DNA of 38,429 bases from Sulfurimonas sp. (GTDB lineage Bacteria > Campylobacterota > Campylobacteria > Campylobacterales > Sulfurimonadaceae), in the NCBI GenBank assembly GCA_024513425.1, contig JANEIH010000008.1:1-38429 (forward strand), in the 5' to 3' direction. The translations under genes were made by a program, and so were the position numbers. The notes beneath the pieces were generated by a model. It made no database searches and was not told where the DNA came from. It saw nothing but the letters and a program-made list of their open reading frames with translations. Shown here in pieces: positions 4,736-8,713 of this stretch (within the stretch, counting starts at the first letter, position 1; each line of letters begins with the position of its first letter).

Positions 4736-7024
4736 TTATGCTGTTTGGTTTAACTCTTTTTTTACAATCTTAACGGCTGCGACCATATTTTGTAAAGATG
4801 GTTTTACCTCCTCCCATTTACGAGTCTTGAGACCACAGTCAGGATTTATCCAGAGTTGCTCTTTTGGTAGAATTTCCAGAAGTGAGTGAATATGTGTCAC
4901 TATCTCTTCAACTGATGGGATGCGTGGCGAATGGATATCATAGACGCCGTGACCAACCTCTTGTTTATAGCCGACTTTTGCAAAGATATTGAGTAGCTCA
5001 TTGCCACTTCTTGCTGTCTCAATTGAGATAACATCAGCATCCATCGCTTCAATAGTTGCAATGATATCATTAAACTCACTATAACACATATGTGTATGGA
5101 TCTGCGTCTCTTTTCTTGCAGAGCTTACGGAGAGTTTAAAATCTCTCACTGCCCAATCTTCGTATGCTTGAACTTTTGAGTCTCTCAGTGGATACCCCTC
5201 TTTAAAGGCAGCTTCATCGACTTGAATGATTTTAATACCTGCATTTTGCAGATCATCAACTTCATCACAAATTCCAAGTGCAATCTGTTTGCTTACTTCG
5301 CTTCTTGGCATATCATCACGCACAAAAGACCAGTTTAGGATTGTAACCGGCCCTGTTAACATTCCTTTCATAATTTTTTCTGTTTTACTTTGTGCATATG
5401 TGATCCAGTCAACAGTCATCGCCTTTGGACGGCTGATATCACCATAGATAAATGGAGGTTTTACACAGCGACTTCCGTAACTCTGCACCCAACCATTTTG
5501 ACTAAATCCATAACCTTGAAGTTGCTCTCCGAAGTACTCTACCATATCATTTCTCTCAGGCTCACCGTGAACTAAAATCTCTAGTCCACACTCTTCTTGA
5601 AATGCTACACATTCATCAATGTAGTTTTTCATCTCTTGCGTGTAAGCATCTTGCGTGAGATTACCACTTTTAAATTCACGCCTTGCGTGTCTTACTTCCG
5701 GTGTTTGTGGAAATGAACCGATAGTTGTTGTTGCAAGCTCTTTGTAGCCTAAAAGCTCTTTTTGAATTTTTATACGCTCTGTATAAGTATCGTCTCTCTC
5801 TAATTTTGTAACGGCAGCAACTCGTTGTTGTACCTTTTTATCATGAATGCGTTTTGAAGTTCTGCGTGAGATATTTGCCTCTTTGTTTAAGATAAGTGCT
5901 TTTTTCTCACTCTCACGCAGAGAAGATTCTCCGTCAAAAAATATTTTACAGAGCAGGGAGATCTCATCGAGTTTCTCAACAGCATAGCTTAACCAGTTTT
6001 TTACCTCTTTGTCCATTTTCTCTTCATATTTAAGAGTAAAAGGAACATGTAGAAGCGAAGAGGATGAACCTATGAGAATATTTTCTCTTTTAATGACATT
6101 TGCGATTTTTTCCAGTTTGGCAAGCGTTGCTTCTATATCTGTTTTCCAGATGTTTCTTCCATCTACAACACCCGCAATGAGTGTTTTTCCGGAATCTGCA
6201 ATAATACCGAGAGAATCATAATTCTCCTCACCATATAAAAAATCAAGCCCAAGAGCCCAAACAGGAGTGTTTACAAGGATTTTTGTAGCTTCACTTGAGT
6301 GTTCAAAATAGCTCACGACTGAGAGTTTAATATTATTTGATATGAGTGCAAGCTTATCATATGTCGGCTTGATTAAAGAGAGTATTTTTGTATCTAAATC
6401 TTTTACAAAGATCGGCTCATCCATCTGTACAACTACTTCATCATCAAGCTCTGCTATCTTTGTTAAAAGCTCCTCATAAAGTGGTAAAAGTTTCGCAAAA
6501 AACTCATAAACATCACCGCCGTCAGCTCTTTTTGAAAGTCCTAGATAAGTAAGTGGACCTATGATATTAATCTTTGTCTTAAATCCTGCTGCTTTTGCCT
6601 CTTTGTATTCGTTGATAATTTTATCTGCATTGAGTTTGAATTGTCTCTCTTTTGAGAGTTCTGGCACGATATAGTGGTAGTTTGTATTGAACCATTTTGT
6701 CATTTCACACGCAGTTGCCTCTTTGTTTCCACGAGCCATTGCAAAGTAAAGCTCTTCATCTTTGAGATCTTTGAAACGCTCTGGAATTACACCAAAAAGT
6801 ACAGAAGTATCAAGCATATTATCATAAAGTGAAAAATCATTTGAGCTGATATGTTCAATACCTGCTTCTCTCTGGTATGCCCAGTGTCTCTTTTTTAGCT
6901 CACTTGCGACTTTTGTAACTTCACCAAAGTCACTTTTACCGCTCCAGTAGCTCTCAAGTGCAAACTTAAGCTCTCTTTGTTCTCCAATTCTTGGAAATCC
7001 TACTATATAACTATTTTTTGACAT
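4736..7024 (-). CDS. metE: Cobalamin-independent methionine synthase
   Basis: Transfers the methyl group of 5-methyltetrahydropteroyl-triglutamate to homocysteine to make methionine in the cytosol. The 762-aa length matches the two-barrel family. The N-terminal half starts with GFPRIG and includes KKRHW. The C-terminal catalytic half carries the zinc and homocysteine site: HTHMCYSEF (about 643-651, His and Cys ligands), the Glu of SIETARSGNE, and the last ligand Cys in NPDCGLKTR (about 726). The ATG has an AAAGGA site seven bases upstream. It lies 40 bases downstream of a 66-codon upstream ORF inside a structured leader, so translation or attenuation control is likely. A hairpin terminator follows. 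Confidence 0.97.
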   Translation of the reverse strand: MSKNSYIVGFPRIGEQRELKFALESYWSGKSDFGEVTKVASELKKRHWAYQREAGIEHISSNDFSLYDNMLDTSVLFGVIPERFKDLKDEELYFAMARGNKEATACEMTKWFNTNYHYIVPELSKERQFKLNADKIINEYKEAKAAGFKTKINIIGPLTYLGLSKRADGGDVYEFFAKLLPLYEELLTKIAELDDEVVVQMDEPIFVKDLDTKILSLIKPTYDKLALISNNIKLSVVSYFEHSSEATKILVNTPVWALGLDFLYGEENYDSLGIIADSGKTLIAGVVDGRNIWKTDIEATLAKLEKIANVIKRENILIGSSSSLLHVPFTLKYEEKMDKEVKNWLSYAVEKLDEISLLCKIFFDGESSLRESEKKALILNKEANISRRTSKRIHDKKVQQRVAAVTKLERDDTYTERIKIQKELLGYKELATTTIGSFPQTPEVRHARREFKSGNLTQDAYTQEMKNYIDECVAFQEECGLEILVHGEPERNDMVEYFGEQLQGYGFSQNGWVQSYGSRCVKPPFIYGDISRPKAMTVDWITYAQSKTEKIMKGMLTGPVTILNWSFVRDDMPRSEVSKQIALGICDEVDDLQNAGIKIIQVDEAAFKEGYPLRDSKVQAYEDWAVRDFKLSVSSARKETQIHTHMCYSEFNDIIATIEAMDADVISIETARSGNELLNIFAKVGYKQEVGHGVYDIHSPRIPSVEEIVTHIHSLLEILPKEQLWINPDCGLKTRKWEEVKPSLQNMVAAVKIVKKELNQTA

Positions 7025-7064
7025 TACAATATCCTTTGTTTATTTTTTTAAGATTGTTTGATTA

Positions 7065-7265
7065 TTAAAGAGATATTGTTAGAGGAGGGTGAACACCACT
7101 GCGACGAAATGCAAAACATACCGTATAGTATGGGCATCTTGGAATATAGTGGTTGAGTAAAATCATAAGTTTTGATTTTATCGTAAAGAAGAGATGGCAA
7201 TGGCATGGTTTTGCATTGTTAAGCAGTGCTTGTTTTGTGGCTATAAAGAGTTCACTAAGTGCCAT
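7065..7265 (-). CDS. Upstream ORF / leader peptide of metE (66 aa)
   Basis: This starts at an ATG with a strong Shine-Dalgarno (AAGGAG at 7272-7277) about 22 bases after a TATAAT promoter, and ends 40 bases before metE. A larger open frame in the same phase begins upstream within pepA, but promoter and SD point to this internal ATG. The peptide contains CHCH (residues 21-24), a later CPYYTVC, and ends RRSGVHPPLTISL; the Cys/His pattern could bind metal. I do not recognise it. It may be a sensing leader peptide, a small protein co-made with MetE, or a frame that happens to lie over the RNA structure at 7108-7217. No run of Met codons is present, so classical Met attenuation is not supported. 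Confidence 0.5.
   Translation of the reverse strand: MALSELFIATKQALLNNAKPCHCHLFFTIKSKLMILLNHYIPRCPYYTVCFAFRRSGVHPPLTISL
7108..7217 (-). promoter_or_regulatory. Structured RNA leader of metE with alternative hairpins
   Basis: On the metE strand, 7217-7202 can pair with 7122-7108. Ten perfect pairs (AATGCAAAAC with GTTTTGCATT) are followed by a one-base bulge and five more, one being a G-U that would be an A-C mismatch on the other strand. The enclosed region has a second perfect 8-bp hairpin (7158-7165 with 7173-7180). A third hairpin (CATAC 7117-7121 with GTATG 7128-7132) uses bases of the long stem, so the two are mutually exclusive. This looks like a switch, but I recognise no known riboswitch class (SAM, SAH and cobalamin boxes not seen). 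Confidence 0.5.
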
Positions 7266-7293
7266 TACTCTCTCCTTGTAGTAAATTTTTGAA

Positions 7294-7299
7294 ATTATA
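7294..7299 (-). promoter_or_regulatory. -10 box of the metE leader transcript
   Basis: TATAAT on the minus strand, with no clear -35 box as is usual for Campylobacterota sigma70 promoters. Transcription would begin near 7287, about 22 bases before the leader ORF start. It sits just before the pepA stop codon in sequence order, so metE need not depend on pepA readthrough. Confidence 0.55.
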
Positions 7300-7306
7300 T
7301 CACAAC

Positions 7307-8713
7307 TTATTTTATACTTTTTAAAAATTGTGTCATAAATCGCACACCTGCACCTGTTGCACCGTAAACATTGACATCCCAAGGAGTCTCTGTGTATGCA
7401 CTTCCTGCGATATCAAAGTGAAGCCATCTACTCTTGTTCTCTTCTTTGATAAAATTATCCAAGAAGAGTCCCGCGGTAATGGCACCGCCATAAGGCTTAT
7501 TGGAGATATTACAAATATCTGCAATATCACTTTTAAGCTGTTTTTTAAGGTGCTTGTTAAATGGTAGGCTTGCTGTAAGCTCTCCTGCTTTTGTTGCAGC
7601 TTTACCGAGATCATGTTTGAGTCTATTGGAGTGTCCCATAACGCCTGTGGTGTATTGTCCGAGTGCTACCATGCAAGCACCTGTAAGTGTTGCAAAGTCA
7701 AAAAGGTAATCTGGTTTTGTTCTCTCCTGTGCATAGTCAAGCACATCTGCTAAAACAAGGCGTCCTTCGGCATCGGTATTGCGTACTTCAATCGTATCGC
7801 CTTTGCGTGAGACAAGTACATCATCTGGCTTATAGGCATCACCGCCTATCATATTTTCAACCGCACCGATAAATGCATGCACTTCGATATCAAGTTTTAA
7901 CTCACTTACAGCCTTAATAATGCCAAGAACAGCACATGCACCTGCTTTATCCATTTTCATAGTGACCATACTTATTGCAGGTTTTAAGCTTAAACCACCA
8001 CTGTCATAAGTGAGACCTTTGCCGACTAGAGAGATGGTTTTTTTTGCATTTTTTGGTCTATATGTAAGATGGATGAGTTTTGACTCATAACGAGAAGCAC
8101 GACCAACTGCAAGCATTGCACTGCATCTCTCTTTCTTGAGCTCACTTTTGCCTAAAATACTACACAAGAGACCATTCTCCTGTGCAAGTTTTTTAGCAAC
8201 TTTTGCCATGACTTCCGGGTGCATATCATCAGGTGCAGTGTTTACAAGATTGCGTGTAAAAGATGTAGCCTCAGTAATAATAAGTGCTTCTTCAAAGAGT
8301 GCTGTAAGCTCTTTAATATTCTCACATGTAAGATAGAGGTTTTTAATCTTTATCTTTTTTGCCTTTGATTTGTAGTTATTAAACTCATATCCACCTAAAA
8401 CAAATCCCTCAATGATTGCCGAAATAGTGTTTTTATCTACATTAACTGAAATTGATTTGTAGTCATAATTTTTTATTGCTTTTGCGGTTGTAGCTGCTGC
8501 AGTGCGTAGGTTTTCAGCATCATAGTTCTCTAAACCACAAAAAAGAAGTGATTTACCATGCATGGCACAAAGAGAATCTTGTTTTGCTTGAAATCCTGCT
8601 TTTTTTAGTGTTTTTTTGAATTTTGCCTTCTTAAGCCCCTCTGCTGTAATCAGCTTTAGAGTAAGATTGTTTTTTATATTAAATACTTTTTTGTCAATAA
8701 GTTGTATATTCAT
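7307..8713 (-). CDS. pepA: Leucyl aminopeptidase (M17 cytosol aminopeptidase)
   Basis: Zinc/manganese exopeptidase that releases N-terminal residues from peptides. The catalytic C-terminal domain has GKGLTYDSGGLSLKP (about 228-242), KMDKAGA with metal-binding Lys and Asp, and the M17 signature NTDAEGRLVL (about 314-323). GAVENMIGG and the YGGAITAG region also match the family. The N-terminal ~160 residues are the less conserved regulatory domain, shorter than in E. coli, giving 468 aa overall. The ATG is preceded by AGGAC. It is upstream of the metE leader on the same strand, but metE has its own promoter candidate. Some PepA proteins also bind DNA; nothing here tests that. Confidence 0.95.
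   Translation of the reverse strand: MNIQLIDKKVFNIKNNLTLKLITAEGLKKAKFKKTLKKAGFQAKQDSLCAMHGKSLLFCGLENYDAENLRTAAATTAKAIKNYDYKSISVNVDKNTISAIIEGFVLGGYEFNNYKSKAKKIKIKNLYLTCENIKELTALFEEALIITEATSFTRNLVNTAPDDMHPEVMAKVAKKLAQENGLLCSILGKSELKKERCSAMLAVGRASRYESKLIHLTYRPKNAKKTISLVGKGLTYDSGGLSLKPAISMVTMKMDKAGACAVLGIIKAVSELKLDIEVHAFIGAVENMIGGDAYKPDDVLVSRKGDTIEVRNTDAEGRLVLADVLDYAQERTKPDYLFDFATLTGACMVALGQYTTGVMGHSNRLKHDLGKAATKAGELTASLPFNKHLKKQLKSDIADICNISNKPYGGAITAGLFLDNFIKEENKSRWLHFDIAGSAYTETPWDVNVYGATGAGVRFMTQFLKSIK

Follow-up and report, generated by a model that had tools for sequence, protein, structure and literature searches.

The leader locus and its peptide

The window, a stretch of 38,429 nucleotides from Sulfurimonas sp. 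(contig JANEIH010000008.1), carries on its minus strand metE, the gene for cobalamin-independent methionine synthase (4736-7024, 762 aa; PF01717 1.6e-143, PF08267 1.4e-119), and, between metE and pepA (7307-8713, which flanks the leader on the side away from metE), a complete small gene of the same strand. The leader transcript has an extended -10 promoter element TGaTATAAT (7294-7302, with TATAAT at 7299-7294), and there follow a Shine-Dalgarno (SD) sequence AAGGAG (7272-7277) and an ORF of 66 codons plus stop (7065-7265, ATG at 7265) that encodes MALSELFIATKQALLNNAKPCHCHLFFTIKSKLMILLNHYIPRCPYYTVCFAFRRSGVHPPLTISL. These parts, and the Cys and His residues of the peptide, had been picked out in an earlier note on this DNA, and all of them are present on the minus strand. 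In 60 of 118 non-redundant metE leaders an exact TATAAT occurs in the 110 nt ahead of the leader start (median 33 nt), as compared with 4/118 for a control stretch of equal length inside the leader ORF.

Within the ORF, the N-terminal part is variable and the conserved portion is a C-terminal core of 46 codons (7083-7220). The core includes a C-x-C motif, Cys21-His-Cys23 (7197-7205), 39 residues ahead of the first Pro, and it ends in His-Pro-Pro (7083-7091), which on sequence comparison we propose as the site of ribosome stalling upstream of metE, the proposed regulated gene.

When 135 genomes of the genus were searched at the DNA level and the loci translated, the leader element turned up repeatedly directly 5' of metE, with a single conserved reading frame in each intact copy. 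metE itself was located in 72 of the 135 genomes (PF08267), and the leader precedes every one of the 69 metE genes whose 5' end was assembled (G105 with two copies). The core can be written KPCHC[NH]..FF..K[ST]KL..LLNHFIPRCPYYT..FAFRR[ST]G[VI]HPP, is followed mostly by 0-5 residues and the stop codon, and is preceded by a variable N-terminus. Among 115 unique Sulfurimonas-type cores the base entropy per codon position was 0.71/0.56/1.37 and dN/dS was about 0.2, and invariant residues were specified by several codons (Arg -7 by six, Gly -4 by four). Given the low dN/dS, the distribution of entropy over codon positions and the varied codons at invariant residues, selection acts on the peptide. 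The leader ORF is real, is conserved for its peptide, and is the central element here; the comparison of peptides across metE leaders that the earlier note had suggested bore out its small ORF.

At one locus (L066, in G084) only a C-terminal remnant of metE and the last 21 codons of the leader are left, indicating that the two decayed jointly and were lost together. No relatives of the leader peptide were found in Pfam, NCBIfam or PDB, and an AlphaFold model, built from only 16 sequences, was of low confidence (mean pLDDT 57, pTM 0.28), with pLDDT below 50 in the near-invariant C-terminus. Such modelled disorder at the C-terminus would fit a nascent-chain motif.

Target genes and distribution of the family

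A family search also brought up paralogous leaders upstream of genes for TonB-dependent receptors. One of them, the short leader MHIPKGFGRDYFTLATMQAYSSWKKITAFFSAVSALDGKPLLKIKINSPPAS, lies in the genome of the window itself, ahead of genes for a btuB-like receptor, btuF, btuD (ABC ATPase) and a btuC-like permease; this receptor has BtuB as its best family match (TIGR01779 4.5e-76, which does not reach the curated cut-off; PDB entry 1nqf for BtuB, 3e-45). In a second genome a leader-associated receptor is followed by CobT (TIGR00303 6e-31), and in G231 a short leader with a weak match to the family (1e-5; L240:4889-5083) precedes cbiM. The cbiM gene, preceded by a leader in G231, bears an AdoCbl riboswitch in other genomes. 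The loci retrieved hold 229 family ORFs, 196 of them before metE and 22 before a BtuB-like receptor or cobT; these loci partly overlap, such that the counts are not independent. The remaining 11 are mostly at contig ends or are continuous with a receptor ORF.

Riboswitches are the textbook means by which B12 controls metE and btuB, and in other bacteria these genes, together with cobT and cbiM-type targets, are under cobalamin riboswitches. At 13 metE or btuB loci no cobalamin riboswitch (RF00174 or RF01482) was detected at E-values up to 0.1, and Rfam riboswitches (SAM, SAH and others) gave only chance-level matches in the window leader, in agreement with the reading of the earlier note that it held no SAM, SAH or B12 element. 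RF00174 exceeded its cut-off in 1 of the 135 genus genomes. Weak RF00174 matches in a few genomes proved to be AdoCbl riboswitches; where their neighbours were examined they stood before cbiM, not before metE or btuB. Divergent AdoCbl riboswitches, mostly under the Rfam cut-off, were seen at L101-L105, before cbiM-like cobalt transporter genes of the genus, and at L236-L239, and at L102/L242 an AdoCbl riboswitch adjoins a btuB-type leader on the opposite strand.

Taken together, metE, btuB-btuFCD, cobT and cbiM point to a vitamin B12 regulon rather than one of methionine, thiols or metals generally, and it is these targets that argue for B12 as the ligand. The genus has metH in 119 of 135 genomes, a setting in which repression of metE by B12 makes sense; some genomes, G050 among them, have metE and its leader with no detectable metH activation domain. 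The earlier note had proposed a new switch that was ribosome-dependent or responsive to a metal or thiol, acting in methionine synthesis. There is strong support for a ribosome-dependent device based on a small ORF that is translated, while the regulon indicates B12 in place of metal, thiol or methionine.

The family extends well beyond the genus. With a profile built from both leader types, the family is found in 265 of the 398 genomes sampled from the order Campylobacterales and in 56 of its 87 genera. Under a stricter threshold the profile hits 92 of 249 genomes taken from the phylum, all of those among the matches listed belonging to the same order. Named genera with the leader include Sulfurimonas, Sulfurovum, Arcobacter, Poseidonibacter, Halarcobacter and Sulfurospirillum, and in 58 of 59 named records the leader is immediately 5' of metE, the exception (L113) lying near the end of its sequence stretch.

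Leaders of the metE type and the btuB type have a common anatomy. An N-terminal block, [KR]GF[GK]K[NR]YF[ST]LxAI, is optional in both; in the form GFGKNYFTLxAI it is signal-like solely in receptor-fused members, and it is absent from the window leader. The C-x-C motif lies 25-60 residues ahead of Pro-Pro in 156 of 158 unique metE leaders (at 34-39 residues in 151 of these) and 34-36 residues ahead in 10 of 16 leaders at btuB-like genes. Near the C-terminus of both types is R[ST]G[VIL][HSA]PP, with Arg at -6/-7, Gly at -4 and His, Ser or Ala at -2 before Pro-Pro, and right 3' of the Pro-Pro codons both types have a sequence complementary to the downstream SD. Many leaders are about 110 aa long and include the N-terminal conserved block, family lengths ranging from about 50 to more than 120 aa, and the invariant residues fall within the last 21 or so, the N-terminus being variable, a pattern that, judged from sequence, would fit regulatory arrest peptides.

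Given the spacing of 34-39 residues, the C-x-C motif should be near the ribosomal tunnel exit while the Pro codons are read, and the conserved Cys/His motif may well be a sensor placed there. Short btuB-type leaders do not have C-x-C, however, so it cannot be the sole sensor.

TonB-dependent receptors of several genera carry the leader's N-terminal block, GFGKRYFSLAAILA, fused on as their signal peptide, the metE leader staying separate (L235:1807-3786 in G236, L174, L180, L182 and others; ORFs of 627-691 aa); either the leader arose from the 5' end of a receptor gene or the receptor captured the leader block. At L087:387-2708 a full-length leader continues in frame, with no stop, into the downstream receptor including the receptor's signal peptide (773-aa ORF). 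Repeats of a CGTCATTGCGAGCGAAG-type element are inserted between the leader and the receptor start in L081 and L082, and in L100 (about 2340-2395) a very strong hairpin is inserted there.

Predicted pairing at the metE ribosome-binding site

In folding calculations the leader region of the window was more stable than 200 of 200 shuffles (z = -4.2), and no intrinsic terminator was evident in its fold. An anti-SD arm (7067-7078, minus strand), which starts 4 nt 3' of Pro-Pro and overlaps the last leader codons and the stop, can form 11 bp with a partner arm (7027-7037) that contains the metE SD, AAAGGA (7032-7037). The resulting metE-proximal hairpin, which covers the metE ribosome-binding region, had been missed by the earlier note.

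Complementarity to the downstream SD is highest from 0 to +18 nt past Pro-Pro; at the metE loci duplex energies average about -5 kcal/mol where the window begins 0 to +3 nt past Pro-Pro and -2.4 by +12. Arms from the same locus pair better than arms exchanged between loci (0 of 5000 permutations as good, in a test that does not model phylogeny), an effect that was absent in a control window. The accessibility of the downstream SD was 0.25, as compared with 0.35 after shuffling of the spacer (107 representatives, p = 1e-7).

We then considered a footprint model, in which a ribosome mask was moved codon by codon along the leader and the unpaired fraction of the SD was computed. In the window, the metE SD was 0.05 unpaired until the P site was at His-Pro-Pro, where it rose to 0.46-0.50. 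At Pro-Pro the mean accessibility rose from 0.29 to 0.48 at 82 metE loci and from 0.36 to 0.60 at 8 btuB-like receptor loci; the gain on modelled stalling exceeded 0.15 in 41 of the 82 metE loci and was small in about half. Given that the SD opens in these calculations with the ribosome on Pro-Pro, the paused ribosome would represent the ON state.

A potential helix of 18 bp (7186-7205/7260-7277), formed with codons 21-27, lies over the leader's own ribosome-binding site (RBS) and is 85% paired in 26 close relatives. It was rejected as a general element, pairing beyond the close relatives being 53%, no better than in slid controls, and two-sided changes barely exceeding those of slid controls; it could tune leader translation in the clade of the window.

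Proposed mechanism, alternatives and known systems

We favor, with a probability of roughly 0.55, a cis-acting uORF whose nascent peptide stalls the ribosome at Pro-Pro under low B12, leaving metE and btuB on, and in which B12 relieves the stall. When B12 is scarce the ribosome would stall with Pro codons in the P and A sites and cover the anti-SD arm, thereby freeing the SD of metE (or btuB) for translation. With ample B12, the vitamin itself or a signal that depends on it would act on the emerging C-x-C segment to relieve the stall, after which the leader would be completed, the hairpin would close, and metE or btuB would be turned off. The stall, the ligand, and direct binding of ligand by the peptide are what we infer here. 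Given that the cell needs metE and btuB under B12 shortage, it is relief of the pause that should be expected from B12, and a separate leader copy for each target gene is as expected of a cis element.

The same stalling uORF might instead read a different signal, either zinc or cobalt through C-x-C, or the methionine, SAM or homocysteine status of the cell. In its favor, MetE is a zinc enzyme and one leader precedes the cobalt transporter gene cbiM. The fixed-spacing C-x-C also resembles the copper-sensing CXXC of CruR (PMC9426467). Against it, btuB-btuFCD and cobT serve cobalamin rather than zinc or methionine, and the same targets are under cobalamin riboswitches in other bacteria; we regard such a signal as unlikely, if a serious contender. 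Distinctly less probable is that the product of the ORF is a small protein acting in trans, such as a helper of MetE and BtuB that binds B12 or zinc, and that its gene simply shares their operon. Purifying selection on the peptide, the many members of about 110 aa with an N-terminal conserved block, and the fusion of this block to a TonB-dependent receptor in some genomes would suit a protein of this kind. It would not be expected, however, that each target gene has a separate leader copy, that lengths run from about 50 to more than 120 aa with little in common except the ends, that the invariant residues stop at Pro-Pro, usually a few codons ahead of the stop codon, or that the position of the anti-SD arm follows the Pro-Pro codons; the low-confidence structure with its disordered invariant C-terminus, and the loss of leader and metE together in L066, also argue against it.

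Very little probability attaches to translational coupling without peptide-specific arrest, in which the anti-SD hairpin is melted by any ribosome translating the leader, and initiation on the leader is the regulated step. The anti-SD arm does overlap or follow the leader end, and the leader RBS can pair with codons 21-27, but that helix is not kept beyond close relatives, and coupling leaves the invariant peptide residues and the fixed spacing of C-x-C to Pro-Pro unexplained. Classical attenuation by scarce charged tRNA (Met, Cys, His or Pro codons) is highly improbable; the leader does contain Cys, His and Pro codons, but it has neither a run of a regulatory codon nor conserved Met codons, its fold in the window has no evident intrinsic terminator, and Arg, Gly and Phe, for which there is no regulatory logic, are equally invariant. 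We give least credence of all to the RNA switch of the earlier note, in which a long stem and mutually exclusive hairpins within the ORF would respond to a ligand or be rearranged by translating ribosomes. The stems can be drawn in the window, whose fold is stable: the long stem of 15 bp (7202-7217/7108-7122, -16.1 kcal/mol), the inner hairpin of 8 bp (7158-7165/7173-7180) and the competing hairpin of 6 bp (7117-7122/7127-7132). The long stem, however, has 0 two-sided changes in 389 cells of the comparison with 26 close relatives and is 62% paired farther out; as the codons it occupies are conserved for the peptide, it has no support as an RNA structure. As the stems neither covary nor persist, and their sequences follow the constraint on the peptide, the logic of a switch operated by their melting was abandoned.

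With the B12-relieved stall as the preferred reading, the leader appears to stand, in this order, where other bacteria use a cobalamin riboswitch. The broader proposal, that a Campylobacterales-wide cobalamin-sensing nascent peptide controls B12-independent methionine synthesis and B12 uptake as a protein-based, ribosome-stalling counterpart of that riboswitch, we put forward tentatively, at a little short of even odds. We would class the leaders as putative ligand-responsive stalling uORFs of a new family, assigned to B12, and not as a riboswitch. To our knowledge, ligand-relieved stalling has few precedents, CruR being one. The Campylobacterales are largely without a riboswitch at metE and btuB, and the stalling peptide family is a candidate replacement that would explain their B12 control; if this is correct, a large cofactor would join the metals, drugs and amino acids to which stalling peptides respond, and B12 regulons could be predicted in many unstudied genomes of Sulfurimonas, Sulfurovum, Arcobacter and their relatives.

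CruR is a DUF2946 uORF before bfrG in Bordetella pertussis, in which copper acts on a CXXC Cys motif to relieve arrest; 45 residues separate the Cys motif from the C-terminal RAPP, the ligand turns the operon off, and the output is via Rho termination (PMC9426467). The present leaders are likewise small uORFs in which a Cys motif keeps a conserved distance from a C-terminal Pro-Pro, with a TonB-dependent transporter gene downstream, and by analogy their ligand may also relieve arrest to turn the operon off. They differ in having C-x-C rather than CXXC, R[ST]G[VI][HSA]PP rather than RAPP, a regulon of B12 (metE, btuB) rather than copper, and a predicted output through SD masking rather than Rho termination, and no DUF2946 match was found in any of the 25 members of the A1 or of the A2 leader sets. 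CutF, a uORF before cutO in Rhodobacter capsulatus, is a Sec-exported copper sensor that turns expression on, and a stem-loop after the uORF was shown to mask the SD of the next gene (PMC9973294). The Cys motif, the Pro-rich C-terminus and the SD-shielding stem-loop, here predicted and comparative, recur in our leaders, most of which, unlike CutF, are by eye without a convincing signal peptide, and which have a B12 regulon.

TonB-receptor genes are one reported target class of the RAPP-like arrest peptides (SecM/ApdA/ApdP/ApcA; PMC10951233, PMC10987492, PMC12992588), and no metE or btuB targets in Campylobacterota appeared in the papers searched. Our leaders resemble them in a putative C-terminal proline-containing arrest motif in a uORF and differ from them in that Arg is 5-6 residues ahead of Pro-Pro, not 2, and the RAPP/RGPP core is absent. 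No B12- or metE-associated arrest peptide was found in the literature searched, which took in few subscription papers and no bioRxiv preprints. Cobalamin riboswitches (RF00174, RF01482) serve the same genes (metE, btuB, cbiM) elsewhere through an RNA aptamer, none of which was seen at the leader sites. In Mycobacterium tuberculosis, metE has a B12 riboswitch with a uORF, the RNA aptamer sensing B12 and translation of the uORF being linked to control (PMC11260477), whereas here no aptamer was detected and the conserved entity is the peptide. In its logic, though without sequence relationship, the leader would most resemble uORFs of the CruR and CutF type.
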